A stretch of 64,000 nt of DNA, taken from a virus. The notes under the pieces were generated by a model. It did no database searches. It had not been told where the DNA came from and saw only the letters and a program-made list of their open reading frames with translations. The DNA is taken from positions 1 through 64,000 of IMG/VR virus record IMGVR_UViG_3300028146_000010; one strand, given 5' to 3'. A program made the translations under genes and the position numbers. Below, piece after piece: positions 2,271 through 49,318 of the stretch; position 1 is the stretch's first letter, and each line of letters opens with the position of its first letter.

Positions 2271-2372
2271 TGTGAAAACGAAAAGGCCGCGTCAAGTCGG
2301 TAACAAGGAATTGTCCCTGCTAACGACCTCACGCGGCCCTGCGGACATGCGCCCGCCAAGCTAAGTTGTCAA
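2271..2372 (-). terminator. Two-hairpin terminator element, copy 1
   Basis: Read on the minus strand. A 15-nt block TTGACAACTTAGCTT (2358-2372) is followed by a small hairpin GCGGGC-GCAT-GTCCGC, then a long interrupted stem opened by GGCCGCGT and closed by ACGCGGCC, with an inner GTCG/CGAC plus GCAGGGA/TCCTTGT helix, and a TTTT tract near 2280. It lies between the 152-residue gene and the repetitive fibre gene. The same 15-mer and the same architecture recur at 16739-16829. The T tract supports intrinsic termination; the conserved 5' block suggests something more. Confidence 0.7.
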
Positions 2373-2373
2373 A

Positions 2374-2832
2374 CTATCCACCAGCACCCGCAGCGGCCCC
2401 TGCTGCTCCTTGCAGTGCAGGCATGATCTTCGCGCTAAACGGCGTCTTGTAACTCCCGGTCTGTGTTCCACTGGAACCTGTCTGCACCAACGGCGGGGCA
2501 GTGAGCGCCGCCAGATACGCATTCTTCTGATAGTTCTGATTGTTCACGTCGTACTGGCCTGCACGAGACTCCTGCCCTGCGGTCTGGTCGATGCTGCGTT
2601 CGCCTGATCGTGTAATCGCATCACGCATCTGCGGGGTGGTGTAACCGCCTGCGGGGTTCAAAAACGAGCGGCGCAATTGAGACTTGGCCTCACCCGCACG
2701 GAAGCCGATGGTTGGGTCAACCTGAAAGTTGGTGCCGCGAAGGGTATCAATATCCGCACTCGACGCGCCGGGTTGTCTCCCGTACGTTGCTGTATTGGTT
2801 GAAGTGCCCTTCTGAGTTTTGGTTGAACTCAT
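2374..2832 (-). CDS. Uncharacterised virion-cluster protein
   Basis: 152 residues, not recognised. It is rich in Ser, Thr, Gln and Gly with a Gly/Ala tail (GAAGAAAGAGG). No cysteine motif, signal peptide or membrane segment is seen. Its start lies 86 bp inside the end of the GNAT gene, an unusually long overlap that suggests one of the two was extended or inserted. It sits with tail-fibre-like genes and is followed directly by the terminator element, so a small tail or ejection-associated role is plausible but unproven. Confidence 0.55.
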   Translation of the reverse strand: MSSTKTQKGTSTNTATYGRQPGASSADIDTLRGTNFQVDPTIGFRAGEAKSQLRRSFLNPAGGYTTPQMRDAITRSGERSIDQTAGQESRAGQYDVNNQNYQKNAYLAALTAPPLVQTGSSGTQTGSYKTPFSAKIMPALQGAAGAAAGAGG

Positions 2833-3277
2833 CTCGTGTTTTCCTCAAGCGTACCCATCGAAAGCGACCTACGCGTTCCTCGATACCATCCCTTTGGAAC
2901 CCGCAGGCTTCAGCCACGCGAATCATACCACAATGTTTATCAATCACCGCAGCAAAAACTTCCGTCGCCCCCCACTGCTCGAAAACCACCCGTTCGATGC
3001 TCATGAGGGCGACCAGTAACACGTCCATGTCGATGCGGCGCTCGCAGTCAAAATGGCATTCATAGACTCCATTGCCATCAGGCCGCAGGGTGACTAACGC
3101 CACCAGTCCGTCAGTGAATATTCCCACGCTCACCCGTCGCTTCATCAGGGCGAACCATTGGCGGAAGTGAGTCAGCGCGTCCCAGCGTCGAACGAGACAA
3201 GGATAGGAATCACGCCAGTGCCAAGCGGTGCGGTAAAGGTGCTCGTCGCGGTCAGGGTGTAGCACTCGGAGTTTCAT
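2747..3277 (-). CDS. GNAT-family N-acetyltransferase
   Basis: I choose the ATG at 3277, one base after the stop of the upstream fibre gene, over a longer frame with no usable start signal; this gives 176 residues. The order fits a GNAT fold: a central strand followed by the acetyl-CoA region, then AVIDKHCGMIRVAEACGFQ (about 117-135), matching the N/H-x-x-x-x-x-x-A-x-x-x-G-F signature near the C-terminus of many GNATs. GNAT genes of this kind are known next to tail genes in podophages. The substrate cannot be deduced. Confidence 0.7.
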   Translation of the reverse strand: MKLRVLHPDRDEHLYRTAWHWRDSYPCLVRRWDALTHFRQWFALMKRRVSVGIFTDGLVALVTLRPDGNGVYECHFDCERRIDMDVLLVALMSIERVVFEQWGATEVFAAVIDKHCGMIRVAEACGFQRDGIEERVGRFRWVRLRKTRDEFNQNSEGHFNQYSNVRETTRRVECGY

Positions 3278-3278
3278 T

Positions 3279-4079
3279 TTAGTTTTGCTTAAAAACTCGC
3301 CATCGAGCGGTCGTACTGTCATAAACCAAATCTGCCGCCTGATCTGCTGACAGCGTAATATCAGCTCCCGTAGAACACAGGAAACGATTAGTTGCAACGC
3401 TGCCAGTATTTTGATGTTTCAGAACAATGTTATTCGAGCCTGCGTTTACTATAAGATGAACCTCGCCGCTTACATTACCTGACGCTGCGCCTCGTGGCTC
3501 GAAACCGGTAACATCTCGACTGGCGTTGCTAGTCCACCTTTGACAATAAGCAGCCCCCGTATTGTAATCGTTCTGATTTGAGGTAATTTGCGCGGGAGAT
3601 AACACAGGCGATGACCACGTTGCTCCCGCGTTCGCGTTATTGCGAAGACGCAATATGCCGCCATTCGTTATAGCAGCGGCCCCGTCGTCTAGCTTGACTG
3701 CGCTACGAAAGTTTATTGAGCCAGTATTCTGAACTGTATAGTTCGCAAAATTAGCGGTGCCCCACTCATGGGTTGAGTCACCCATGTCCTGCGTACCGCT
3801 TGTGCCAATTGGTTGAAACTTCCCGTTTAGAGATAGAACGTCACTTGCTTTGTCGTAGGTAAGACCCGCATCGCCTCCGAATGCTCCAGAGTCGTTAAAT
3901 TGTACTTGCGTGTTGCTACCACCCGGTGACGTGCTCGCTGCGGTTCCGCTAGTTACGGTTGTCCCGCTGCGTTTGAGAAACTGACCATCGGTAATCCCAG
4001 CAATCGTCAGCGTGGTCGGCCCAGCAGTTTCCTCTATTTTCGTAGCTACGGGAAAGTAACTCATCAGACAATACTCCAT
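3279..4079 (-). CDS. Tail-fibre-like protein
   Basis: 266 residues. It contains the recurrent phage fibre segments TIAGITDGQFLKRSGTTVT and NTQVQFNDSGAFGGDAGLTY (the latter about residues 56-75), typical of repetitive beta-structured tail fibres. The C-terminus (DITLSADQAADLVYDSTTAR) resembles beta-helix capping regions of such proteins. It overlaps the preceding fibre-like gene by 16 bp, indicating translational coupling. It probably forms part of a fibre or tailspike built with its neighbour; receptor and activity are unknown. Confidence 0.7.
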   Translation of the reverse strand: MEYCLMSYFPVATKIEETAGPTTLTIAGITDGQFLKRSGTTVTSGTAASTSPGGSNTQVQFNDSGAFGGDAGLTYDKASDVLSLNGKFQPIGTSGTQDMGDSTHEWGTANFANYTVQNTGSINFRSAVKLDDGAAAITNGGILRLRNNANAGATWSSPVLSPAQITSNQNDYNTGAAYCQRWTSNASRDVTGFEPRGAASGNVSGEVHLIVNAGSNNIVLKHQNTGSVATNRFLCSTGADITLSADQAADLVYDSTTARWRVFKQN

Positions 4080-4763: not shown

Positions 4764-5426
4764 ATGCTTAACTACTTACAAGTACCTTTTCTCAATCGGG
4801 CCTACCTGAAACTCCTCTTTAGCAAAATTGCGATCACTCCGTCTATTTCGTGGAATGGAACATCATGCTGGATTTGGACTGGCCGCACGGATAAGGGATA
4901 CGGATTTTTCCGCTATAAAGCCAGAAGCACGCGAGTTCATCGCCTAATGTTTGCATGGTTAGTTCACCCAATCCCGAGAGGTCGTCAACATGGTGAATTG
5001 GATCATCTGTGTAAGCGTCCGGCTTGCTGTAATCCTATTCACTTGGATTTCGTAACCGCCCAGATTAATTGCCTGCGAAGTAACAGTCCTGCGTCTATTA
5101 ACGCACGAAAAACTCATTGCAAGCACGGCCATCCTCTAAGTGGCGACAATCTACTACTAGAAAGCGGAGGCCGCAAGTGCCGTACGTGTAGAAATAAACG
5201 AGCCGCAGAATACCATCAAAAATATCCCGAAAAACATCGAGAAGCTTGCAACCGATGGTGCAGAAAAAACCGAGAGGCCCGTACCGAGTACCGCCGTCGC
5301 TGGCGCGCAAAGAATCCAAATTACTTCCGAGATTTAATGCGTAAAAAGCGAGCGGCAAATCCAGAGGCGTATAATCTCTACATGCGCGAATATCAAGCTC
5401 GGAAAAAAGCGGAAAGATTGACATAA
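4764..5426 (+). CDS. HNH homing-type endonuclease
   Basis: 220 residues, the only plus-strand gene in the leftward tail block. CWIWTGRTDKGYGFF (about 31-45), HRLMFAWLVHP and GELDHLCKRPACCNPIHLDF (about 76-95) form the HNH core of the phage family with an H-L-C-x-x-x-x-C-x-N-P-x-H-L signature. The zinc pair CKHGHP and CRTC follows, and a basic C-terminal tail full of Arg/Lys (RRRWRAKNPNYFRDLMRKKR) should bind DNA. Known role: freestanding homing nuclease. It carries its own promoter and sits between tail genes, as expected for a selfish insertion. Confidence 0.9.
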   Translation: MLNYLQVPFLNRAYLKLLFSKIAITPSISWNGTSCWIWTGRTDKGYGFFRYKARSTRVHRLMFAWLVHPIPRGRQHGELDHLCKRPACCNPIHLDFVTAQINCLRSNSPASINARKTHCKHGHPLSGDNLLLESGGRKCRTCRNKRAAEYHQKYPEKHREACNRWCRKNREARTEYRRRWRAKNPNYFRDLMRKKRAANPEAYNLYMREYQARKKAERLT

Positions 5427-13920: not shown

Positions 13921-15198
13921 TTACAGCCCAGCGGTGATCTGAGTTGCGTACCCGAGTTGAGCGCGTTTGATGAAAGCGGAGCCACGGCCACTGAGGGTCG
14001 CAGGGTTGCCTTTCCATCCCACAGCAGATTGCCAGTTATCGCTTCCGGTCTGGTTTGCGCCCAGCAACATACGAGACTCAAGTCCATCGCGGTTATATTT
14101 TCCGTACGGTTTCATCTCGTAGATTTTGTAGTCGGAAGTCTTCAGGAAATACACCCGATCCTCGTCCATGTCGCTGTCGCAGATAAAACGAGTATCGCCA
14201 TCGGTGTAGTCACCCTGCACGCCCTTCATGGTGTCGCTGCCAGCATCTTCGCGGAGATAGTAGCCAAGGTTGTAGCCCTGCTTGCGAACGGTGGAGTATT
14301 GGCCCCACGTGATGAATGCGGTCAGGTTGTTCTTGGCATCGGTGGCATTGTTACGGGTTTGGAGCAACGCTTTCGCGTTCTCAATGGCTGCCGGGGTAAG
14401 CAACGCACCTGCGAGGTCAACCACGGGGGCATTGAGGTCGGTGTAAACGCTGGTGTCCAGCCCTTGCAACACACGGTTCTGGTCGCTGTCGAGCCAGCCA
14501 ATACCACGCATGGCAAGCTGATAGCTGCCCTGAATGACGATGGGGTCGCCGGATGAAATGGTGCCACTCAGCACATTCACCGTCGCAGACGACGTACCTG
14601 CGGTGGTCACGACAAACGTGCCCCGCACCGCACCCGTTGAAGCGTTGATGCCTTGATACGTCTCGCCTTCCCACAGCCACATGGTGCCTTTGGTCTGACC
14701 GGGGGTAGTGGCAGCGGTTGTGGTGCCTGCAAGGGATTGTGAACCCAGCGCAGTTGTGGTGGTTGCCGAGTACGCCACCGCGCCATTACCAGTGCCATAG
14801 AAATACTGGTTCATGCGCTTGCGAAACGTCTCGGTGTACTGCACCATCACCTGATCGTAGGATTGAACGTTATCTTCCGTGTCGTTCTCCATTGATTCGA
14901 TGGTGCTGCCTGCCCAAATCATCGGCCATGCGCTCATGGTCGGATAGACCCACATGCTCACGGTCTGCGGCCCGTTGGCCTGATTGAAGTCTGAATTATC
15001 CGGCGTGAACCATGTCATGCCAGTCGGACGGCGTGCGTAGTCGGGAAGGCGATAGCCCTTTTCGGTAAGTTTCGGTTTATCCACCGCCTTACCAAATGCC
15101 CTCATGCCCGGATCATTGTTCTCGTAGAACATCCGAACATCCTTCTCTACCGCTTGCCGCTTGAGATCGGTAATTTCACTGAATTGAACTGCTCCCAT
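13921..15198 (-). CDS. Major capsid protein (HK97-like fold, inferred)
   Basis: 425 residues. Size, the position after the scaffold-like gene and portal, and composition fit a phage coat protein. The segment TEDNVQSYDQVMVQYTETF (about 106-124) reads like a spine helix, NLTAFITWGQYSTVRKQGY (about 288-306) resembles the A-domain region, and GDTRFICDSDMDEDRVYFLK (about 329-348) the C-terminal A-domain strand pattern of podophage coats. A Thr/Ala-rich insertion around 145-210 could be a surface domain. The protein builds the icosahedral shell. Confidence 0.8.
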   Translation of the reverse strand: MGAVQFSEITDLKRQAVEKDVRMFYENNDPGMRAFGKAVDKPKLTEKGYRLPDYARRPTGMTWFTPDNSDFNQANGPQTVSMWVYPTMSAWPMIWAGSTIESMENDTEDNVQSYDQVMVQYTETFRKRMNQYFYGTGNGAVAYSATTTTALGSQSLAGTTTAATTPGQTKGTMWLWEGETYQGINASTGAVRGTFVVTTAGTSSATVNVLSGTISSGDPIVIQGSYQLAMRGIGWLDSDQNRVLQGLDTSVYTDLNAPVVDLAGALLTPAAIENAKALLQTRNNATDAKNNLTAFITWGQYSTVRKQGYNLGYYLREDAGSDTMKGVQGDYTDGDTRFICDSDMDEDRVYFLKTSDYKIYEMKPYGKYNRDGLESRMLLGANQTGSDNWQSAVGWKGNPATLSGRGSAFIKRAQLGYATQITAGL

Positions 15199-17206: not shown

Positions 17207-17514
17207 TAGGCAGCCTTTTCGTGGCGCTCCATATGACATGGCCGACATAGCCATTCAACCAAGCGCGGGTTACTGTAATCAGGATGGTGCATTTGCGATT
17301 TATCGCTGCCACAATCAGCGCAAGGCTCTTTAATTAACTTTCCCCGTTTTAAGAGCACCGCTGAATAGCTGCGGCACCGATCTTTTACCTTTTGCGTCTC
17401 CGTGAGCGGATGGGTCTTACGCCAATTTCGTACATAAGCAGCCTTGCACTTGCGACAGTACCTATGAACCAATTCTCGCGGGCCACGGCACGCCGAACAA
17501 ATCCGTAATTTCAT
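17206..17514 (-). CDS. Small HNH-type zinc protein
   Basis: 102 residues. N-terminal C-x-x-C pairs (CSACRG, CRKC) precede PCADCGSDKSQMHHPDYSNP (about 66-85) and VEWLCRPCHMERHE. This is the compact phage HNH pattern C-x-x-C ... H-H-x-D-Y ... W-L-C-x-x-C-H. Proteins like this are either small homing nucleases or packaging-associated HNH proteins. The position directly after the portal allows the second, but the terminase-linked HNH proteins are usually beside TerL. Confidence 0.75.
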   Translation of the reverse strand: MKLRICSACRGPRELVHRYCRKCKAAYVRNWRKTHPLTETQKVKDRCRSYSAVLLKRGKLIKEPCADCGSDKSQMHHPDYSNPRLVEWLCRPCHMERHEKAA

Positions 17515-17568
17515 TCCTTAATTCTACCAGATTCGTTGTTACTGTAGAACTTTTTTTAACGGGTTCCA

Positions 17569-25151: not shown

Positions 25152-28100
25152 CTATGGCGCTGCCGCTAGCACCGTCCGTGGCTGTCGTGGTTTCGCGGCC
25201 TTGCGTGGCTGAGTTCTGCGGTACGCATCGGCAACTTGCTCGGGAATCTTACGAATCGCCTCAGCCTTGTCCTTCTCGCTCATCTTATCATAAGCCGAGC
25301 TACTTACCAGTGCGTCTGTTTGTTGCTGGATGTTGTAATTCACGGTTCGTCGTCGTTGCTCGTATTCATCAGGCGTTTCGTCAGGTTGAATTATCACGCC
25401 CTTTACATTGACACCCAACCGCTTCATTTCATCGCTGCCTTTAGATGGTTGGTTATTGAATACAGGGCTGATATTGAACGGCACTTGCTGCCGCAATCCC
25501 GGCACGCCCATTTCCATTGCTTGAGTGAACCCTTTGGGCCTACGCCGCGCTATCTCTGTTTCCTCTTTGTCGGTAGCTTTTGCTAACTCCTGCATGATTT
25601 GCGGTTCGACCCTCGCGGCCAGCCATTTACCCATCTGCGTTGACATCGTTTCGCCGTTCTTTAGCGAACTCACAGCATCGACATACTCATTGAGAAATGG
25701 GACTTGTTGAGCGGTGCCCTTTGCGCCAGTCGCCAGCCCTGTGCGTACTCGTTGCCCCAAACTTTGATCTTTATTCTGTGCTACTTGACTCTGAATCTCA
25801 CGTTTCAGTGTGGAGGTAAATTGCGCCAACTCATTCGGCGGACTATGTAGCGCCCAATGCGGGATCGTCACAGGGCCGACCTTCACATCACCGGGTTTCA
25901 CTTCGTTCTTATCACCGGCACCGCCATAGTAGCCGCCTAGTGCCACTTTGCCTGCGCCTGCGCCGCTCAGTCCGCCTAACGCCATGTAAATTAGACCTAC
26001 AGAACCGCGTTTCAATAACCGCATGGTCTTGTCTGCGGCCTCGGGACTGAGTTTGCCCATTAAGTCAGGGTTGCGACGTTCTAACTCTTTTGCCGCTTCA
26101 ACTATCGTGGCGTCCATGTTATGCGTAGATGTCTCCGCTACCGCCCGTCGTAACCGCACTTCACTGGCAATGCCGCGAGCAATGCCACGGGGAAGTCCTA
26201 AACCATATTCACCGATAAGTTGACCAAAGAGATAATTTGACGGTACGCGCTCCACGGGTACGAATATACGGCTGACATCTTGCCCTTCCTTGCTTAACAT
26301 TCGTCGCCCACCGCGAACCATTCTACTGAACGGGTTATCGCCCAGCATCATGATTTCTTCCGCGTGCTTTGCGGCAGCGTCGTCAATCCACTGCTTCACG
26401 TCAGGATCGTTAACGTCCATTCCCTGCTTTTCCGCCCATTGACGATTCTGTACTTTAGCGCGAGCGTTTTCACCCGATCCGAGAATGTTCTTTTCGGCCA
26501 TGTGAACACGCCCCGGCACGGCAAGGACGGTTCCGGCTTTTGTAGGAATTTGAGGATAACGCTTCCCTGCTTCTAACGTGAGCGAGGTTTCGCCTGACAT
26601 TAACGCACGAGGTATGTCTTTGACACCGCGACCAATCCCACGGGCAAATTCGGCTTCTGACTCGCCACTAATTCGCTGCCCATGACGCGGGGCCATTTCG
26701 GCGGTACGGGGAAACAATTTGCGCGCACCTTCACCTGCTACTTCGCCCATGTACTGTTGGGCGGCTGACTGGCCTAATGCCGATCCAATCTTACCAATGG
26801 TACGGGTTCCGGTGAGTAGGCCAGCGCGTACACCTGCCGCTGTGTAAGCCAGCCCTTTCTGAAACACATTCTTGTTCCGCCAATCAATCACATTGCCTAA
26901 ATTATCAATCTGCGATTGCAGGATTTTCGCGTTACGTTTAGCAACGCGCACCTCGTCGGTTTCAGGCGTGACTTTCTGTTCAGGCTTAACGGCCCGCTGA
27001 CCAGTCTTCTGCATGTCGGTCAATTCAGCCTGCATGTCACGGACTTTACCCGCCCATCGCTGGCCGCTGGCCTTCTGTACGTTCAAGGTCTTCCGTGCTT
27101 CGGCTTCGTATTCCGCCCAGCTACCCGTTGCGCCGTAGAAGGATGCTTTCGGCTGCGGAGCTTCACGAGCTTTGCGCGCCGCGTCGGCTCGCATGTCAGT
27201 GACGATCTGGCGAAGTGTGGCTCGTTCTTTTTCTGCGGCTCCGATTTCAGGCGACCACAGTGACCTTGCACCTTCACGAACCTCTGGCTTGACCTTACCT
27301 GATCGAATCGCTGCCTGATTCTCAGAGATAGACTTATTGAGTTCGGTTAGCCGCCGCTCAACTGCCTTCTGGTCAGCCGCAGGATCGCTAATCAGTGCCG
27401 CCGCTTTCTCTAGCCCCGCCTGCTCGGCTTTCAGTTGCCGCAGTTCGCTGTCAGGGATGACTTGTTGCCGCCCCTGAACCTCTTTCTTGCCGCTCGCTAT
27501 CCATGACTTCAACTGCTCAATTCGATTGCGGGTGGTCTGTTTCGCCTTGTCCAGTGGAGTAGCCTGCTCGGTTTCAGGGTTATAAGGCTTCTCACCTAAC
27601 TTCACCCCTTGCTCGCGCATAGCGTCTTGGAGTTCACGAAGGGCGCGGCGCTGATCTTCGGTGGGTTTATCACGTTGTTGGCCCCGGCGTAACGGCCTGA
27701 TTCCTTTTTCCACGACATCAGCCTTGCCTGACGTGGAAGCGAGAATAGATTGAACTTCATTCAGTTTCTTTTCTACCGCGTCGGTAGTTGTTTTCTTGAT
27801 TTGTCCATAGCCTGAAATAAGGTCACTAACTTCACGCTTTGAAAGATCAGAAACGTCCTTTAAGTGAGCATGGATAGAATCAACTATGTCCCCTGCTTTT
27901 GTAACGCCATCTTCGATGTAATTACGCGCCAAGTCTCGAACTACCCGCGCCATTTCCCCTGCCTTAGCGGGATCGAACTCGCCCTTCTCACTGTGAATAA
28001 ATTCAGCAACGGATCGGGAGCCTGTAAGTTTGGCGAATTGCTGTTTTAGATCGGCGCGTTCAGTAGCTAACACCTCGCGGGTTCTCTGTCGCGCTTGGGA

Positions 28101-31100
28101 GCGCAACTTCATCTTGTATTCACGGACAAACTTATCGGTCTGAGCAAGCGACTGTTTCTCGCCTGCACCTTTTTCCAGATCGTCAATGCGTTTGTTGGCC
28201 TGCTCTAGTCGGGAAGTGAGATCGTCAACTTTCGTTTGAATGTCAGGTGGTAACTCGCGGCCTTTGTTCAACGCTTTTAGTTTAGCTGTAACCACCGCAC
28301 GGGAATAGTCACGGTTGATTAACTCACGGCGAATTGCCAGCCCGCGACCTTGTTCACTACCAGCACGATAGACCGCTTCATCGTTCGCATCGGAAGCGGC
28401 GTCTAGCTGCTTCACTTTTTGATAAGCATCGGCAATTTTCTCTTCATTGCCTGACTTTTCCGCTGCGTCCAATTCGGCTGCTGCTAATTCCTTGCCGTTG
28501 CTAATCCGCATCCGGTCGTAAAGCAATGCCATTGATTCTTTGGTAGACAGCGGACGAGGTTCTTTCACGATGCTGGCTGCGAGTGAACGCGGATCAATAT
28601 CGCCGTTCCGCACCGCCGCAACGCCTTGATCGAAACTCTCACCATGCGAGCGACGGGCTTTGACGAATTGCGGTAGACCTTGCAGTTCGCGTTCGGCTTC
28701 TACGACGGCGTGTTTAATCGACGTAGTATCAGGTAACGGCTCTGGTGTCTCTACCTTTGCAGTCGAAGGGATGCTTTTAGAGCCTCTAACTGACTCGGGC
28801 GCAATGTCAGTCCCCAACTCACTAACTGCCCTGCCTTCAATAGTCGGCCCTGCCTCACGTACCGCCCTGCCTTCCGTTTCAGGCGTGGCGGAACGCGATA
28901 CCACACTGGGTACACGTTCGCTGTCAGTAACGGGCAATGATTCGTTTGTAGTCCCTGAAATTGGTTGCTGTTCTCCACTTGATATGTCAGTCCTTGCATT
29001 TGGTTCTCCTTTAGTTTGCGCTTCTACTCCACCTAGAGGCGGTGCGATCTTTCCCGCTTTTATTAATTCTTTATATGCGGATTCGGGATGTCTGCCAGAT
29101 TCCCCCACCAGTGTTATGTTAGACGGATCAATTCTACCTTCTATATTTGCATCCTCGGCAGCGAGAGCATGGGCCGGTGATTTGACTCCGAGCGCAGATT
29201 GCTCAGGCGAAACTTTAAGATCGCCTTTCTTGATGCGAATCGCTAAAATTTGCCGACCATAGCCGGACGCCCCGTCAGGTGTAGCGGCAACGGTGACGCC
29301 CCTCGCCAATCCACGACCGGGCGCAAACTCTGCGTATTCGCCTCTATCGTATCGTTCACGAGCCAAATTAGACGGCTTCGCAGATGTATCTATACCTTCT
29401 TTTGCAAACTTTCCAGCCGTGGCTTTATCGGTCGCGTGGAAGACGTACATTGGAGTATCGTCCGGCAATTTATCAAGACGTTGCCCTGCCTCATATACAC
29501 CCTCAGTTCCGCGCTTATGCGTCTTGTAAAACTCATCTTCCGTTATGGACTCAGGTCTACCTACTTCACTCTGAGGCGAGGGAGCGGCGACTGATTCATA
29601 CACGGGAATAGTCTCGCGGTTTAGGATTTGCGCGGCGCGAATTCGATGACTGCCTTCTATTCCACCGGGGCCGATTACGATGGGTTGAAAGCGACCAGAC
29701 TCTTTAATGTCATTGGCTAGTTCTTGCGAATCCGATTCAAAGCCGGGTTTCGCTGCGGTGCGGGCATCGGGAGTCAATTCAGAAATAGGCACATCACGCA
29801 GCCGCCAACGCACATCTGTACGGTTAGCGATGTATTTTCCTTTAAAGTTTTGCAGCGACTCTAAAGCGTCTTGTTTAATCTCAAAAGGAAGTTCATCGGT
29901 TCCGAGAGTGCTAGAAACTTCCTTCTTAACGCGCCAATCCTTTTGTCCTACAAGATCGATACCTCTCTGCACGTCTTCAGGCGTGGAAGCCGTCACGGGC
30001 GCGGCTCCGGCCATCGGTGGTTCTACTTGCGGACTACTAGCAGGTTCATTCGGAGGTAGACTTGTCTCCGTTTGTGGCGTTACTGACTGAGAGACTCTGC
30101 GGTCTATTACTTTGAACGGTGCGTTCTCGGCTGCTTGTGCAGCTTCGTCAGCGACTCGGCTATCTATCGGCTGAGGCTTAGCGCGAACAGGTACGGCAAT
30201 CTGATTCCCCGCTCCTGTGCCCTTAGGTCGCTGGATAATATGTTCTGTGCCGTCTTCTGCAAGTACGCGAACCTTTCCCTTCCCTGCTCCAGACTGATCG
30301 GCTGATTCCGTGACTAATCCAAAGTCTCGGTGTTGCCAACGGTTTAACGTACTACTTGATTCAGAGCGATCAATGCGTAATGGTTCGGCTTGGGCCGTTC
30401 CCGCTACGATAGGATTCTCAGGCTGAGGTAATATGGATAATCGACCCTGAGCACCTGCAAGTCTTACGGCGTTCTCTGTGCCTTCTGGCGCGGTCTGAGG
30501 TACTTCTGTAGGCTGTGCGCCTTGAAGGTTCGCTCTAACGCGTTCGGCGCGAGCATCTGCAATCACAGGAGCAATGCTCGCCTCGGGCGGCACAACCTCT
30601 GGCGGACGTGCTCTCGTGCCTTCTGCAACCAGTCCCGGCCCTGCAACCATGCCTGCATTAATTGCACCAGATTTAAGGGCCTCGCTTACTGGTTTACCTG
30701 TCGCTAGATCTACGCCAGCGGTCGCCGCACCTACCTTACCCGCATGGGCCAACGTCCCGCGCACGCCGGGAGATGATTCAGGAATCTCAAACGCCGCGCC
30801 TTGCAATGCACCCTCAGTGACGGCAGGCACCACGGGACGGCCCATGCCCTTAGCACGTAGTCCACCGCCAGCGGCGAAGGTAGCAATCGGCGGTACGCCA
30901 ATCGACATCAATAACAGTTCCGGCGCGGAACCTGCAAAGCCTCCGAGAATATCTTGAGCCAGCTTCGATGCTTGGCCGCGATCCTTACTTTCCTCTTGTG
31001 CGGCCTGTGCGGCTGCGACGGCGCGGATTCGTAACGCATTGGCTGTCTCTTTGGCTCCAACGGTGTTTGCGCCGCCCGCCATGAACTCCGCGAGACTAGC

Positions 31101-32225
31101 AGCACCCTTTCCTTGTAATTCAGTCAACCACTTGGTCATGCTAGAGTCTTGAATCTGTTTACGATACTGCGCGACCTGATTATCAATCTCGGCTTTGTTC
31201 GCTTGTTCCCATGCGGCCTGACTTGCGGCTTGCTGTTCGGCAGACTTTTCGTTAGCGACTCGTTCGAGTACGGCTTCGTTCTCAGTGCGGCGTAGTGCGG
31301 TAGTTTTGGATTCCTCGGCTCCCGGTTCCAACCCGAGATGCTTTTCTAACGGAGTCTGTTGTGCTGAAACTTGCTGTTGAGCACGGATGATTCGAGATGT
31401 TTCAGGATCATCAATTTGCCGTAGTCCGCCAACGCCATTCGGTTGAGGCTGGCCCATGCCACTAACCGGAGCCGTGGGCGTTAATCCTTGCCCGATGGTT
31501 CCGCCGCCTCCCCATCCTTGTTGCGCACGACGGCGCATAGGAACAACTGTACCTTGCGCACGGGCCATGCCTGCACCCCTGCCGCGAGCCTCAGCCAGCA
31601 CAGCGGTCTGCGCTCGATCCATTGCCGCACCCTTAGCTTGTACGTCTTCCTCTGCGGCAGCAATCGGGTCTTTGTTTACCAGCCCACCGCTTAAAATGTC
31701 AGGCTGTTGCGTTGCGGGTTGCTGAGGTTTTACTACCAGCCCACCGCTGAGTATCGGGTCTTGTCTTGACTGTGCCGCACCCGTGGCTTTAACGTACTGC
31801 GCGGCGGTCATGTTGCCGTCAGAAATGTTTGGTATGCGACCTGTACGCTCATAGGTTTGCTTAGCTCGTGGGCCACCAAAATAATATAACCGTCGCGCTA
31901 CTGGATCGTCACCACCTTCCGCAAAGTACCGCAATCCTGCCTCAATATTCTCATCGGGATTCCTAAGATTGTACCGCCGCCCTCCAACAGTCCGAGTCGT
32001 GCCACCCCGAACATCCGGCATCACCTGACCAAATCCTTGTGCGCCCTTAGAACTATCCCGTACGTTGACGTTATGACCAGACTCGACTTGAGTAGTTTTA
32101 AGGTAATCTTCGGCAACGTCGGGAGCGATATTCGATTGCGTCGCAATGCGCCTTACGCGATCCGCAGGATCAGCGGAGCGAGGCACTAAGCCGCCAGAGA
32201 GGATGTCGTTAGGATCGTCAGGCAT
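25152..32225 (-). CDS. Giant polyvalent virion protein: lytic transglycosylase, ParB-like and ART-like domains
   Basis: 2,357 residues from the ATG at 32225, 4 bp after the upstream stop; a GTG at 32273 would add 16. Near the N-terminus TTQVESGHN, QGFGQVMPDV and AGLRYFAEGG (nt ~32095-31900) form an SLT-type transglycosylase with a catalytic Glu (codon ~32084). RDVPISELTPDAR to IEGSHRIRAAQILN (nt ~29800-29575) is a ParB-like nuclease/ATPase fold. YVFHATDKATAGKFAKEGID to YGRQILAIRI (nt ~29460-29100) looks like an ADP-ribosyltransferase-type fold. Long coiled coils follow (nt ~28600-27000), and the C-terminus has hydrophobic helices. This is the architecture of phage polyvalent proteins thought to be ejected with the DNA and to open the cell wall and counter host defences. 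Confidence 0.85.
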   Translation of the reverse strand: MPDDPNDILSGGLVPRSADPADRVRRIATQSNIAPDVAEDYLKTTQVESGHNVNVRDSSKGAQGFGQVMPDVRGGTTRTVGGRRYNLRNPDENIEAGLRYFAEGGDDPVARRLYYFGGPRAKQTYERTGRIPNISDGNMTAAQYVKATGAAQSRQDPILSGGLVVKPQQPATQQPDILSGGLVNKDPIAAAEEDVQAKGAAMDRAQTAVLAEARGRGAGMARAQGTVVPMRRRAQQGWGGGGTIGQGLTPTAPVSGMGQPQPNGVGGLRQIDDPETSRIIRAQQQVSAQQTPLEKHLGLEPGAEESKTTALRRTENEAVLERVANEKSAEQQAASQAAWEQANKAEIDNQVAQYRKQIQDSSMTKWLTELQGKGAASLAEFMAGGANTVGAKETANALRIRAVAAAQAAQEESKDRGQASKLAQDILGGFAGSAPELLLMSIGVPPIATFAAGGGLRAKGMGRPVVPAVTEGALQGAAFEIPESSPGVRGTLAHAGKVGAATAGVDLATGKPVSEALKSGAINAGMVAGPGLVAEGTRARPPEVVPPEASIAPVIADARAERVRANLQGAQPTEVPQTAPEGTENAVRLAGAQGRLSILPQPENPIVAGTAQAEPLRIDRSESSSTLNRWQHRDFGLVTESADQSGAGKGKVRVLAEDGTEHIIQRPKGTGAGNQIAVPVRAKPQPIDSRVADEAAQAAENAPFKVIDRRVSQSVTPQTETSLPPNEPASSPQVEPPMAGAAPVTASTPEDVQRGIDLVGQKDWRVKKEVSSTLGTDELPFEIKQDALESLQNFKGKYIANRTDVRWRLRDVPISELTPDARTAAKPGFESDSQELANDIKESGRFQPIVIGPGGIEGSHRIRAAQILNRETIPVYESVAAPSPQSEVGRPESITEDEFYKTHKRGTEGVYEAGQRLDKLPDDTPMYVFHATDKATAGKFAKEGIDTSAKPSNLARERYDRGEYAEFAPGRGLARGVTVAATPDGASGYGRQILAIRIKKGDLKVSPEQSALGVKSPAHALAAEDANIEGRIDPSNITLVGESGRHPESAYKELIKAGKIAPPLGGVEAQTKGEPNARTDISSGEQQPISGTTNESLPVTDSERVPSVVSRSATPETEGRAVREAGPTIEGRAVSELGTDIAPESVRGSKSIPSTAKVETPEPLPDTTSIKHAVVEAERELQGLPQFVKARRSHGESFDQGVAAVRNGDIDPRSLAASIVKEPRPLSTKESMALLYDRMRISNGKELAAAELDAAEKSGNEEKIADAYQKVKQLDAASDANDEAVYRAGSEQGRGLAIRRELINRDYSRAVVTAKLKALNKGRELPPDIQTKVDDLTSRLEQANKRIDDLEKGAGEKQSLAQTDKFVREYKMKLRSQARQRTREVLATERADLKQQFAKLTGSRSVAEFIHSEKGEFDPAKAGEMARVVRDLARNYIEDGVTKAGDIVDSIHAHLKDVSDLSKREVSDLISGYGQIKKTTTDAVEKKLNEVQSILASTSGKADVVEKGIRPLRRGQQRDKPTEDQRRALRELQDAMREQGVKLGEKPYNPETEQATPLDKAKQTTRNRIEQLKSWIASGKKEVQGRQQVIPDSELRQLKAEQAGLEKAAALISDPAADQKAVERRLTELNKSISENQAAIRSGKVKPEVREGARSLWSPEIGAAEKERATLRQIVTDMRADAARKAREAPQPKASFYGATGSWAEYEAEARKTLNVQKASGQRWAGKVRDMQAELTDMQKTGQRAVKPEQKVTPETDEVRVAKRNAKILQSQIDNLGNVIDWRNKNVFQKGLAYTAAGVRAGLLTGTRTIGKIGSALGQSAAQQYMGEVAGEGARKLFPRTAEMAPRHGQRISGESEAEFARGIGRGVKDIPRALMSGETSLTLEAGKRYPQIPTKAGTVLAVPGRVHMAEKNILGSGENARAKVQNRQWAEKQGMDVNDPDVKQWIDDAAAKHAEEIMMLGDNPFSRMVRGGRRMLSKEGQDVSRIFVPVERVPSNYLFGQLIGEYGLGLPRGIARGIASEVRLRRAVAETSTHNMDATIVEAAKELERRNPDLMGKLSPEAADKTMRLLKRGSVGLIYMALGGLSGAGAGKVALGGYYGGAGDKNEVKPGDVKVGPVTIPHWALHSPPNELAQFTSTLKREIQSQVAQNKDQSLGQRVRTGLATGAKGTAQQVPFLNEYVDAVSSLKNGETMSTQMGKWLAARVEPQIMQELAKATDKEETEIARRRPKGFTQAMEMGVPGLRQQVPFNISPVFNNQPSKGSDEMKRLGVNVKGVIIQPDETPDEYEQRRRTVNYNIQQQTDALVSSSAYDKMSEKDKAEAIRKIPEQVADAYRRTQPRKAAKPRQPRTVLAAAP

Positions 32226-32229
32226 AGCG

Positions 32230-32505
32230 TCAACATCGGAACGGTTCTCGAATTTCACAAAATGCCTTATCACGCGCTCGGGAAAGAATACTAGCCGTCA
32301 CGTCCAGCTTGGCTAACTCCTGACACGCACCGCCAGTTTCGCAATCATCATGTTGCATTGCGTACTCTTTACAGAAATCAATCGAGTCCCAGTTCTCGTC
32401 ATCCAATACGACATGCCAACAGCAACCCGCCGCATGGTTAATATAAATCTGCTTGATTAGCTCTTTCGCTTTGGGCGAAATGTTAACGCGCTTAGGTACT
32501 GACAT
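32230..32505 (-). CDS. Conserved phage hypothetical protein (AGCCxHVVLDD type)
   Basis: 91 residues. IYINHAAGCCWHVVLDDENW (about 20-39) and FCKEYAMQHDDCETGGACQE are characteristic of a small protein found in many phage genomes; I know no function. Five to seven cysteines and His could form a metal site. It overlaps the 484-residue gene by 1 bp and ends 4 bp before the giant protein's preferred ATG. Confidence 0.6.
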   Translation of the reverse strand: MSVPKRVNISPKAKELIKQIYINHAAGCCWHVVLDDENWDSIDFCKEYAMQHDDCETGGACQELAKLDVTASILSRARDKAFCEIREPFRC

Positions 32506-42857: not shown

Positions 42858-43397
42858 ATGTTTGACCAGATGCTTAAAGCGGCGCGACTTAACTTAGGAC
42901 TATCGCAAGAGGAATTGGCGCATAAGCTAAAAGTGAGCGCGCGAACTGTTTCCAGATGGGAATGTGGAGATGTGAAACCGTCAGCCCCGGCTATCGCGAT
43001 ATTCGCGGTTTATCTCAATCGAGCGCCGCAAGGTTACATGGTAGCGTTTCCAGCTTCGATTGCTCGTGAGTATAAGCGATTAAGCATAAAAGCTGGCGGA
43101 AAGATTAACAATGATGTCAAGCACGAACGATTGCCGCGTCCGAATACTTTAGGTTGTAGCGATTGTAGCAACACAGCGCGAATTTACGATCATCGAGACT
43201 ATTTGGCACCGTTAGACATAGAACCTGTTTGTGACGGCTGCAATTCACATCGAGGCATGGCAATTAATACTCTTCTCGCGCATGAAGATTATTGGCAGTC
43301 GTTTGATTGGAATGAGCCACCAGCGCAAGAGCGGCATCCGCAATGGAAAGGTCAGACAGATGCGGTGAGGAACTATCGGAAGGATGGCAGTAAGTAA
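42858..43397 (+). CDS. XRE-type HTH fused to HNH-like zinc domain
   Basis: 179 residues. Residues 4-58 (AARLNLGLSQEELAHKLKVS; ARTVSRWECGDVKPSAPAI) are a classic Cro/CI HTH. Residues ~97-140 carry CSDCSNTARIYDHRDYLAP and EPVCDGCNSHRGMAIN, the C-x-x-C ... H-x-D-Y ... C-x-x-C-N pattern of phage HNH-like domains. Whether it cuts is uncertain because the usual second catalytic His/Asn arrangement is compressed. Palindrome and promoter just upstream suggest self-control like a repressor. Confidence 0.8.
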   Translation: MFDQMLKAARLNLGLSQEELAHKLKVSARTVSRWECGDVKPSAPAIAIFAVYLNRAPQGYMVAFPASIAREYKRLSIKAGGKINNDVKHERLPRPNTLGCSDCSNTARIYDHRDYLAPLDIEPVCDGCNSHRGMAINTLLAHEDYWQSFDWNEPPAQERHPQWKGQTDAVRNYRKDGSK

Positions 43398-45919: not shown

Positions 45920-46623
45920 CCAAACCATCACCCCTGCGGCTGGCGGTCACACGGTACGAGCTAACCGACCCGGAAGCCGTGCTGCTTGACGGTCAAGTAC
46001 GCGACACCGTGCAATCTTTGATAGACGCTGCAAAGGCCAGACTATCAGCGATTGGCCTCTATAGCGATTTGTCCGAACGTGAGGCCGGGTTCGTTGCAGA
46101 TGTAACAACCGAAGCGCATACCCAGAAAATCCTTGCTCATGGTTGCGAATATATCCGTAGATGCCCGGTTTGCGAAAAGGACGCTGGTTATCACATTCGC
46201 ACTCGTTCATCCCGCAACGGTCGCAAAGGGCAACCAGATTTTTCCAAGCCAAAGCTATTTCCTGCGCTTGAGTTTCATCAGAGCTTTATAACTATCAAGA
46301 ATCGCGTTGCGCTTGGCTGTTGTCAGGATTGCTTTGCTCGCGTAAAGCCGTATCTGGCTGACGCGCTAAAAGACGTTAAGGCTCAAATTCCCTCGAACGT
46401 CACAGGGCATAAACCCACCTATCTGCGCATGACTTGCACAAAGTGTTCATGGATCGGGCTGGAAAGTGAAATGGGAAAACTGCCAGCCATAATGGGAAAC
46501 GGTTACTATCCCGGCAAGTGCCCTTCGTGCGGTGCCGAGAACCAGTTATTCTCAAGAAACATCGAAGCAGTTAGCCCAGTTGAATACGCAGTTGTACCAA
46601 ACAAGGAAGGACGAGACTGGTAA
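45916..46623 (+). CDS. Uncharacterised protein with three zinc sites
   Basis: 235 residues. RRCPVCEKDAGYH (about 76-88), GCCQDCFARVKPYLADALK (about 134-152) and MTCTKCSWIGLESEM with GKCPSCGAENQL (about 175-215) are three C-x-x-C-based sites. Function not recognised; RNA or DNA binding is possible. Coupled to both neighbours. Confidence 0.55.
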   Translation: MTKPSPLRLAVTRYELTDPEAVLLDGQVRDTVQSLIDAAKARLSAIGLYSDLSEREAGFVADVTTEAHTQKILAHGCEYIRRCPVCEKDAGYHIRTRSSRNGRKGQPDFSKPKLFPALEFHQSFITIKNRVALGCCQDCFARVKPYLADALKDVKAQIPSNVTGHKPTYLRMTCTKCSWIGLESEMGKLPAIMGNGYYPGKCPSCGAENQLFSRNIEAVSPVEYAVVPNKEGRDW

Positions 46624-46886
46624 TGTCTAAACCTACTAACAGACTGCGGCTGGCCGACAGCGACGACCCGACGACTCCAGCGGATATTGAACTAGCCCGA
46701 ATAGCCCAAAGTCACCGGGAATGGTGCGGGCCGAATGGTCTGGGTTGGAAACCTTATGTCGGGCCAACGGGGAAGTCAGCCAATGACGTTGATGAGATTG
46801 TGGCGCGACAGTACAGGGTGGTGGCTGACCGTCCGGTGCCGTGGGTGCGCAGAGCGTTGAGGAGGATTGTCAGATGGATCAGATAA
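46623..46886 (+). CDS. Uncharacterised small protein
   Basis: 87 residues. Start overlaps the preceding stop (TAATG). N-terminal acidic stretch (DSDDPTTPADIELARIAQSH), then a Trp/Gly turn (REWCGPNGLGWKPYVGP) and a basic helix (VPWVRRALRRIVRWIR) that may be membrane-active. Not recognised. Confidence 0.5.
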   Translation: MSKPTNRLRLADSDDPTTPADIELARIAQSHREWCGPNGLGWKPYVGPTGKSANDVDEIVARQYRVVADRPVPWVRRALRRIVRWIR

Positions 46887-47595: not shown

Positions 47596-47668
47596 GTACA
47601 CACGCGCGCGTAGACACAATTTGAAATTCGTGTTTAACAAGACTAAGTAGCTGATAGATAGATAGATA
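47596..47668. repeat. Alternating purine-pyrimidine tract and GATA repeat
   Basis: A 17-bp strictly alternating purine/pyrimidine run (47596-47612), including C-G steps, could adopt Z-DNA. It is followed by GATAGATAGATAGATA (47653-47668). Both lie next to the dyad iteron array, as expected of an unwinding region. Confidence 0.6.
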
Positions 47669-47672
47669 ACGA

Positions 47673-47774
47673 TTGGACAGGGCTTGGACAATGGACGGAC
47701 AAACTTGGACAGTGTTTAACACCAAGACGGAAAAATGTCCAAGAATGTCCAAGCATTGTCTAACGCCTGTCCAA
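47673..47774. repeat. Dyad-symmetric iteron array (candidate origin or partition/control site)
   Basis: Eight heptamers related to TTGGACA. Forward copies start at 47673, 47684, 47695 (ACGGACA) and 47705. Inverted copies (TGTCCAA) start at 47736, 47746, 47757 (TGTCTAA) and 47768. Successive copies are 10-11 bp apart, so they lie on one face of the helix, and mirrored pairs all sum to 95447, so the array is exactly symmetric about 47723.5. The centre contains the small palindrome GTGTTTAACAC. The array sits just past the 3' end of the RepA-like helicase gene. Confidence 0.8.
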
Positions 47775-47785
47775 CAGCTAAGTCC

Positions 47786-48709
47786 TTAATTATCAACGCT
47801 AATTGGGTGATCCTCTGCTATTTTCAGAGGGGGACGGTCTGAGCGTTCATAAACGCCAGCGTCCAGCGGAGTGAGAACTTGATTTTTTACGCAGTCCGTC
47901 ATGGCGCGATCCCCGGTCTTTTCGCTCACGTTCAAAGCCTTCGCCCATGCGATAATTTCAGACCGCAGTACCACGCTTCCCGCGCTCAGAGCCTCGATTC
48001 TCAGTTTCAGGGCCGCGCTTGGCTTGACTGAGGCAAGGGGCACTAACACGCCGTTGTTTCCAAACACGTAGCCGTGAGTCTCAGACGCCGCATTACGGGG
48101 CAAGATTTTGACTTTGATGTTGCCTGTGGATTCTTCCAGTTGAACGGTGATGATCGTATCGGAGTACGCGCCCCACGCGACCGAGCCAAGGATTAACTCT
48201 CGGGAATGCTGAAAGCCTTCGTCCAGTTTCATCTTTGGCGAGTGGGCGATGCCGAGGATTGTTATCTTCCGTTTCGCGCACAGCGTGGCGCTCTTTTTCA
48301 ACAGTCCAGCCACGGGCGCATAGCTGTTCCCTTTGTCGCCTACCAACGTCTGATAGCCCTCCACGATAAAGAACTTGGCGTCTGGGTAGACTTTCAGGGC
48401 CGCGTCAATGACACCTGCGATGGTTGCAACAGTGGATTCTATATCCTCTTGGCAGATAGTTCGAGTGATGATGTCGGCTAGTCCTAGTCGTTCCAATGTG
48501 CGCGTGACAGATGAACGCGAGCGGTCGAGGCTGATATAGACGTAAGGAACGGGATGCGATTCGTGACCAAATACCGGATCGCCGTTCTGCCAGTCGGCTA
48601 GAGTCTGGAAAATGAGCGTGGTCTTACCTGAGCCGGACGATCCGCCAAGCAAGTGGATTTCATTCGCAGGCAGTATTCCTTCTATAAGGAACTCAGGTGA
48701 ATCAGGCAA
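47786..48709 (-). CDS. RepA/DnaB-type hexameric helicase-like ATPase
   Basis: 307 residues. LLGGSSGSGKTTLIFQTLAD has Walker A at 22-30; DAKFFIVEGYQTLVGD (about 112-127) is the Walker B region, with Glu where many RepA-like proteins have Asp. KITILGIAHSPK matches the sensor/H4 motif of RecA-like helicases of the RepA/AAA_25 group. The C-terminal ~90 residues include an HTH-like tail (LRSEIIAWAKALNVSEKTGD). Likely role: replicative helicase or origin-binding ATPase for the adjacent iterons. No separate primase or polymerase is seen. Confidence 0.75.
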   Translation of the reverse strand: MPDSPEFLIEGILPANEIHLLGGSSGSGKTTLIFQTLADWQNGDPVFGHESHPVPYVYISLDRSRSSVTRTLERLGLADIITRTICQEDIESTVATIAGVIDAALKVYPDAKFFIVEGYQTLVGDKGNSYAPVAGLLKKSATLCAKRKITILGIAHSPKMKLDEGFQHSRELILGSVAWGAYSDTIITVQLEESTGNIKVKILPRNAASETHGYVFGNNGVLVPLASVKPSAALKLRIEALSAGSVVLRSEIIAWAKALNVSEKTGDRAMTDCVKNQVLTPLDAGVYERSDRPPLKIAEDHPISVDN

Positions 48710-48712
48710 ACG

Positions 48713-49048
48713 CTACCACTCCCACGGCTTGCGCCGTCGATTCTTCCGATTATGCATAACGTTATCGGTAGGCTCATAGCGCCTGATCATGTATTGCTCT
48801 ACGATGTCCAAATCTTGAGGCTCAAGAGCAATCCACGCGACGTGACAATCGGCTAAAAACCATCCTCGCTTCTTACAGCGACGGCGCAAGGACGTAGCCT
48901 TACCGATATACATGATGCCGTATTTAGGGTGAATAAGAATGTAGACGCCTGAGCGATCCGGCAACCTGCCGCATAAGGCATCTATGACCCGCCGACTACC
49001 GAAACAAACGGGCTTGCTGAGAATCTCACGCAGCCTTTCGTTTTCCAT
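48713..49048 (-). CDS. GIY-YIG endonuclease-like protein
   Basis: 111 residues from the internal ATG at 49048 (an ATG at 49105 would overlap the HTH gene more). SGVYILIHPKYGIMYIGKA (about 34-52) is the GIY-YIG core with conserved tyrosines, followed by SLRRRCKKRG and the EQYMIRRYEP helix containing the catalytic-type Glu. The basic C-terminus (NRKNRRRKPWEW) should bind DNA. Known role: homing or structure-specific nuclease. Here it lies between the HTH and helicase genes. Confidence 0.75.
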   Translation of the reverse strand: MENERLREILSKPVCFGSRRVIDALCGRLPDRSGVYILIHPKYGIMYIGKATSLRRRCKKRGWFLADCHVAWIALEPQDLDIVEQYMIRRYEPTDNVMHNRKNRRRKPWEW

Positions 49049-49211
49049 TTTTGCGCGCTTTGTAGCGGTCGATTTGAGATTGCTTGATAAGCCACACGCC
49101 GCCAATGTTTACCGCTTCGATTCGGCCCGCAATGATTAGCTGGCGGATTCGACTGTCGGTAACGCCTAGCTGTGCGCCTGCTTCTGTGGTGGTTACACGT
49201 CCTGCAATCAT
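49026..49211 (-). CDS. Excisionase/MerR-like HTH protein
   Basis: 61 residues. VTTTEAGAQLGVTDSRIRQL then IIAGRIEAVNIGGVWLIKQS is the small excisionase (HTH_17) layout: winged helix with a G-G-x-W-x-I wing and basic tail. It leads the leftward helicase cassette with its own leaderless-type promoter. Likely a transcription or DNA-architecture factor. Confidence 0.75.
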   Translation of the reverse strand: MIAGRVTTTEAGAQLGVTDSRIRQLIIAGRIEAVNIGGVWLIKQSQIDRYKARKNGKRKAA

Positions 49212-49276
49212 GGTTGGCAGTATACTTTCATCTTCGTTAACCTGTCAACCGAAAACTTTCTCACGCAATCGTTAAC
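49212..49276 (-). promoter_or_regulatory. Leftward promoter of HTH/helicase cassette, predicted leaderless
   Basis: Minus strand TTGACA (49243-49248), 18-bp spacer, TATACT (49219-49224), ATG 7 bp later at 49211. Two CGTTAAC copies (about 49235-49241 and 49270-49276) flank the -35 side and may bind a regulator. Confidence 0.7.
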
Positions 49277-49283
49277 TTTTCTC

Positions 49284-49318
49284 TTGACACCCACTCCCCG
49301 CCGTGGTAAGTTGCTGGC
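49284..49318 (+). promoter_or_regulatory. Divergent rightward promoter
   Basis: TTGACA (49284-49289), 17-bp spacer, weak TAAGTT (49307-49312). Divergent from the cassette promoter and serves the 49339 gene, which has GAAAGGA before its ATG. Confidence 0.5.

Follow-up and report, generated by a model that had tools for sequence, protein, structure and literature searches.

A candidate replication-initiation module with a RepA/RecA-fold ATPase among the early genes of a phage

Described initiator systems and the phage locus

To our knowledge, it is not known for most environmental phages where and how DNA replication starts. In the SaPI Rep helicase/origin pair and at the Cch2 origin of SCCmec, as in the cassette described here, iterons lie directly downstream of the initiator helicase gene. 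The C-terminal domain of the SaPI Rep helicases acts on these iterons directly downstream of rep, and they have been proposed to bind in the form of two hexamers (PMC7581432); the cassette helicase ends in a predicted winged helix, which may be a DNA-binding domain of this kind. The helicase families differ, however, as those of SaPI and SCC elements are of the DUF927/primase C-terminal type, whereas the cassette carries a RecA-fold AAA_25/RepA-type protein instead. Also unlike a SaPI, the cassette is part of a full phage, and its first cistron is an HTH gene.

RSF1010 RepA/RepC/oriV resembles the cassette in combining a RecA-fold helicase ATPase with an iteron origin, which is a candidate origin in our case. 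The cassette ATPase differs in its extra predicted C-terminal winged helix and in swapped Glu and Asp residues, and neither a RepC nor a RepB homologue was recognised. The same AAA_25 superfamily is found in phage early regions, as in lactococcal phage F13, whose GP46 has proven 5'-3' helicase activity (PMC8965321), and in PMBT14 and Serbin, where a fused primase-helicase of roughly 650 aa is encoded beside DNA polymerase I; no HTH-helicase-iteron cassette was seen in PMBT14 or Serbin. Finally, BldC, Xis and RdfS are, like the HTH protein of the cassette, small stand-alone winged HTH proteins, and they bind repeats cooperatively head-to-tail. They differ in being regulators or excision factors with no linked helicase and iterons.

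The locus was analysed in a window of 64 kb from a 72,991-bp IMG/VR phage record (G000). On the late side of this genome, structural genes (terminase, portal and others) run leftward over about 0.5-42 kb, and on the early side genes run rightward over 42.9-61 kb. The late block contains a 2373-aa ORF (25152-32273, minus strand) that has no match in PHROG at 0.001 and resembles proteins of the related phages G001-G003 only in parts, and on the opposite strand an HNH endonuclease gene (4764-5426, plus strand; phrog_826, 3e-36). An early protein (42858-43397, plus strand) has HTH_3 at its N terminus and, towards the C terminus, a weak match to a PHROG endonuclease family; it is a candidate repressor where late and early genes diverge.

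The cassette sits in the early region, and its three genes (49211-47786) are read leftward, opposite to their rightward early neighbours. A sequence-only reading had described three leftward genes, a promoter and repeats at this place, and all of them were found within about 20 bp of where it had put them. The features are as follows (window coordinates).

47602-49292, minus strand: whole cassette, with limits taken from DNA similarity to G001 and the nuclease gene as a gap
47603-47610: GCGCGCG tract closing the origin-like region, shared with G001 and G004
47618-47677: A+T-rich 60-bp segment, candidate unwinding element (70% A+T versus a genome mean of 47%)
47673-47711, plus strand: iteron tetrad 1, TTGGACA-type, starts at 47673, 47684, 47695 and 47705 (spacings 11, 11, 10)
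47712-47722: near-palindrome GTGTTTAACAC between the tetrads, in the same place in G001
47736-47774, minus strand: iteron tetrad 2, inverted, TGTCCAA-type, starts at 47736, 47746, 47757 and 47768 (spacings 10, 11, 11)
47786-48709, minus strand: RepA/RecA-fold ATPase (AAA_25, 6.4e-16), putative replicative helicase, 307 aa, TTG start
48713-49048, minus strand: GIY-YIG nuclease (GIY_YIG_2, 2.4e-6), 111 aa, between the HTH and helicase genes
49026-49211, minus strand: winged-HTH regulator of the excisionase/BldC-type HTH_17 (Pfam HTH_17, 1.1e-8), 61 aa
49219-49248, minus strand: leaderless-type promoter TTGACA-N18-TATACT (11/12), 7 nt upstream of the HTH ATG
49235-49240 (in the promoter spacer) and 49270-49275: two TTAACG boxes, 35 bp apart, candidate operator
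49284-49312, plus strand: divergent rightward promoter candidate TTGACA-N17-TAAGTT, its -35 inside the conserved block

Judged from its anatomy, the block probably serves the phage as a self-contained replication-initiation module. The reading draws on the gene content, the array geometry, the A+T peak, the promoter spacing, the block limits and the sharing between phages, all of which were observed. By analogy, the cassette would in our best reading work like the SaPI Rep-ori pair, yet it is built on a D/E-swapped RepA/RecA-fold ATPase. The compact unit, with its candidate origin of strict, conserved geometry, is clonable in 1.7 kb and directly testable.

Genes, promoters and repeats of the cassette

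AAA_25 was the sole Pfam match of the ATPase over the cut-off and the only AAA_25 match in the record. Apart from one doubtful case, the protein also has the only canonical P-loop in the long ORFs of G000, and DnaB_C was not detected in any of the five records (G000-G004); another replicative helicase was not found. The full-length model showed a RecA fold at moderate confidence (pLDDT 64.6). In VIA-align, RSF1010 RepA (1olo) came first with a Z of 9.7, tied with DnaB, KaiC, RadA and archaeal RecA-like ATPases, and because the full-length model is only moderate, these matches are read as the RecA fold with no ranking. The last 82 residues, modelled separately, gave a winged helix (pLDDT 81.5) with GntR-type matches, predicted to span residues about 230-290. 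Its predicted recognition helix in G004 differs from that in G000 and G001 (KTGDR versus RTCDA).

The Walker A sequence GSSGSGKT and the sensor His156 were invariant in the alignment, as expected of the RecA-fold core of RepA-type proteins. The alignment reference was L020, a distant primase-helicase with a domain that gives a match to RepA in the PDB at 4e-4. All three cassette ATPases have Asp62 and Glu117 at positions occupied by Glu and Asp in L020 (and, by way of L020, in RepA), and thus depart from the RepA-type catalytic Glu and Walker B Asp. Since D and E are swapped relative to the RepA-type proteins compared, ATPase activity is not to be presumed; a reciprocal swap could be compatible with kept activity. 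The variant active site bears on the workings of RepA-type helicases.

The HTH protein scored above the cut-off for the NCBIfam excisionase family TIGR01764 and matched Pukovnik Xis (4j2n) in a profile comparison (1e-4), and so has the HTH_17/excisionase fold. An alternative that builds on these excisionase matches is control of recombination and excision, in which the HTH protein would be an excisionase, the array the arm region of an attachment site and the block an integration module. We consider this highly improbable. Searches with PF00589 and PF00239 gave no matches in the records of G000, G001 and G004, which are possibly incomplete, while positive controls were detected; with no tyrosine or serine recombinase, these records offer no partner integrase, and the excisionase role is disfavoured. 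In addition, the helicase is conserved, and its gene is in every case followed by the array.

The leftward genes had been assigned their own leaderless-type promoter, and TTGACA-N18-TATACT bears this out, as only 7 nt separate it from the HTH ATG. Both the N18 spacer and the 7-nt distance recur in G001 and G004. The TTAACG box was observed twice versus 0.06 expected, and the 35-bp spacing is kept in G001 (5547 and 5582 of L009). The divergent promoter candidate lies below detection by the consensus scan and was read from the sequence; its -35 is conserved in G001 (TTGACA-N18-TATAAC). For autoregulation via the TTAACG boxes, the HTH protein is a good candidate.

The repeats start about 12 bp past the helicase stop and are found downstream of the helicase gene in G001 and G004 too, so that the candidate origin has the position of SaPI-type iterons. 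An iteron array had been suggested here; the repeat cluster was confirmed, but in place of a simple direct array it consists of two inverted tetrads of roughly 7-bp sites, in which four GACA units (starts 47676, 47687, 47698 and 47708), phased at 10-12 bp, face four TGTC units (47736, 47746, 47757 and 47768). With six exact copies of TGTCCAA/TTGGACA in 120 bp, this is the strongest 7-mer cluster in the 64-kb window, where other, unrelated 120-bp stretches have at most three copies of any 7-mer. The phased, inverted 4+4 pattern occurs once on the plus strand of the 64 kb, and 100 simulated first-order Markov windows did not contain it at all. Matches of the geometry scan on the minus strand are the same palindromic array, its position 16229 on that strand being the array counted from the other end.

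Tetrad spacings are 11, 11, 10 and 10, 11, 11 in G000 and 11, 11, 10 and 10, 12, 11 in G001, and in the gap between the tetrads the two phages differ by exactly 10 bp, which is about one turn of the helix. One-turn spacing, inverted tetrads and the 10-bp gap difference are consistent with a pair of opposed complexes on the same face of the DNA. The array of G004 uses another word (TTTGCAA), again with eight TGCAA sites in the same place. The A+T-rich segment has the second-highest 60-bp value in G000, tied with three other peaks, and the corresponding segment ranks second in the examined part of G001 and first in G004. A point against an origin is that no GC-skew flip was found at 47.7 kb, where the skew tracks the gene strand. 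The highest 60-bp A+T peak of the genome lies at 17500-17560, just past the portal-like gene 20241-17569.

The array occupies a gap between convergent genes, a setting that would also suit a regulatory switch or recombination-helper operon, with the repeats as operators or a bidirectional terminator and an ATPase that helps recombination. AAA_25 relatives are frequently annotated as DNA recombinase, and a Sak4-like protein and an exonuclease are encoded nearby in G000. However, no terminator-like site was found in 47.6-47.8 kb, and the terminator reading of the array is rejected; an A+T peak and an eight-site array stand beside the helicase gene in three phages; and the cassette is missing from G003, where a different repeat-bearing early gene exists. 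We regard this alternative as unlikely.

Another proposal keeps the module and changes the reader of the iterons. The HTH protein would be the iteron-binding initiator, which bends the DNA and recruits the helicase, arranged head-to-tail on phased repeats as BldC and Xis are, with labour split as between RSF1010 RepC and RepA. BldC, RdfS and lambda Xis, which are HTH_17 proteins, form head-to-tail oligomers on DNA (PMC5859096, PMC11963761). BldC does so on direct repeats, where each subunit takes up about one turn of DNA (the spacing here is 10-12 bp), and the profile match to Pukovnik Xis points in the same direction. Because BldC, RdfS and Xis can coat phased repeats, the HTH protein is a serious rival as iteron binder. 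Against it, the promoters of G000 and G001 have a different conserved box, TTAACG, as the expected HTH target, and SaPI-type helicases bind their own iterons. Moreover, the RIRQL segment is identical in the HTH proteins of G000, G001 and G004, yet the iteron word of G004 differs. The proposal is possible but rather doubtful, and its probability overlaps with that of our best reading because it is a version of the same module.

Distribution of the cassette and the optional middle gene

Three related phages (G001, G002 and G003) were obtained by a terminase search, and the comparison included a fourth phage of 42.6 kb (G004). A 425-aa structural protein (13921-15198) is 89% identical in G002, 87% in G003 and 65% in G001. 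The HTH, GIY-YIG and ATPase genes are all three missing from G002 and G003, so the cassette is not found at one place and in one order throughout the relatives. In the distant relative G001, the HTH and ATPase genes keep their order and run leftward among rightward early genes; in G004 the two are adjacent and opposite to both flanks. Identities to the G000 proteins are 69% (G001) and 52% (G004) for the ATPase, and 61% and about 37%, respectively, for the HTH protein. The two genes co-occur with a downstream eight-site array, an A+T peak and GCGCGCG in all three phages. The phage, plasmid, viral and genome collections searched yielded copies only in G001 and G004, plus the distant primase-helicase L020, and tblastn against 50,697 phage and 72,556 plasmid records detected none; that these collections give just three copies in all counts against the module reading.

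Across its 42.6 kb, the HTH and ATPase pair is the only detectable similarity of G004 to the window. As the cassette is shared with this unrelated phage and absent from nearer relatives, it has been exchanged as a module over evolutionary time, and its being the sole likeness makes it look like a swappable replication-start kit. On our best reading, it would show that whole replication modules are swapped between unrelated phages. In G003, which is without the cassette, GATAAC repeats lie inside a 292-aa early gene (L015 10461-10660, about 47.46-47.66 kb of G003), possibly another kind of origin inside an initiator gene.

In blastn, G000 and G001 were 65% identical over 47602-48697 (3e-61) and 70% over 49180-49292 (1e-8), with a further match at 49018-49073 (0.001). 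DNA similarity thus covers 47602-48697 and 49018-49292, and the flanks are at background identity; faster divergence of the flanks may be a partial cause of these sharp limits. A compact unit of regulator, helicase and candidate origin that moves as one piece had been proposed at 47596-49276, in close agreement with the limits found here (47602-49292). The HTH gene, the ATPase gene and the array do come and go together; the GIY-YIG gene does not, as it is missing from the copies in G001 and G004. A comparison of base composition and codon use with the flanks had been suggested; GC, GC3 and codon use were within the range of the neighbouring genes, and a foreign composition is rejected. A recent insertion into G000 is unsupported because the composition is ordinary, an empty site was not found and, on the same side of the cassette, G001 shares one weakly similar gene (46623-46886 versus G001 31621-31869; E 1e-6).

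The gap in G000/G001 DNA similarity is exactly the GIY-YIG gene, which is therefore optional cargo outside the core. The ORF as listed starts at TTG 49105; with the alternative ATG at 49048, the gene overlaps the end of the HTH gene by 23 nt, and this start is the likelier one because the overlap is exactly that of the replacement ORF in G001. The slot between the HTH and helicase genes holds an unrelated 59-67-aa ORF in G001 and is empty in G004, and no GIY-YIG gene was found in G001, G002, G003 or G004. On sequence comparison, the gene is a passenger. Its product matches the UvrC N-domain (1yd6, 0.005), and candidate Tyr/Tyr/Arg/Glu/Asn residues of the catalytic GIY-YIG motif are readable, as in homing endonucleases. 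The separate DNA-targeting domain of such enzymes was not recognised, GIY-YIG being the sole recognised domain in 111 aa.

These motif residues, the sporadic distribution and the sharp DNA limits would be consistent with a selfish block, GIY-YIG gene included, that spreads by nuclease homing. We find this very unlikely, as the other two copies of the unit are without the nuclease, no target-recognition domain is recognisable, no empty site was found and the composition is ordinary. The earlier suggestions that the nuclease is an integral part of the unit and aids its spread are accordingly not upheld. Odn of ICP1 is a GIY-YIG-superfamily enzyme aimed at an origin (PMC8263062). Like the protein here, it links a GIY-YIG-type nuclease with a replication-origin module; unlike this single-domain protein, it is fused to an iteron-binding domain. 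Since an origin-directed enzyme such as Odn exists, an anti-competitor role for the cassette nuclease is conceivable, though unsupported here.

Proposed initiation mechanism

From the arrangement described above, we infer DNA binding, unwinding, origin function and autoregulation along the following lines. One mRNA from the leaderless promoter would span the HTH, optional middle and ATPase genes. Acting as a ring helicase of the RepA type, the ATPase may recognise the eight iterons directly downstream of its gene through the C-terminal winged helix, with the HTH protein as the second choice of iteron reader. On two inverted tetrads with units about one DNA turn apart, two opposed complexes could assemble, open up the A+T-rich segment and leave behind a pair of helicase rings, from which the host replisome would carry out bidirectional synthesis. 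By binding the TTAACG boxes of the divergent promoters, the HTH protein would set the level of the module, and it might take part in switching to the genes read rightward. The GIY-YIG gene would be a passenger in a translation-coupled slot, in place of another small ORF.

We put forward more tentatively that the cassette represents an undescribed class of portable phage replicon. Its members would have a D/E-swapped RepA-type initiator helicase with an origin-reading winged helix, two opposed rings on inverted tetrads and an HTH-run leaderless promoter, and would be exchanged as one block with a passenger slot between otherwise unrelated phages.

The module must lean on the host because no primase was recognised and no PolA-type polymerase was found in G000, G001 or G004. 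Phage beta sliding clamps (DNA_pol3_beta) are encoded in the early regions of G001 (L009 14769-15869) and G003 (L015 6598-7695). In the early region of G002, an ORF at 2339-3340 (plus strand, in L011) resembles an IS1595-type transposase by sequence reading.
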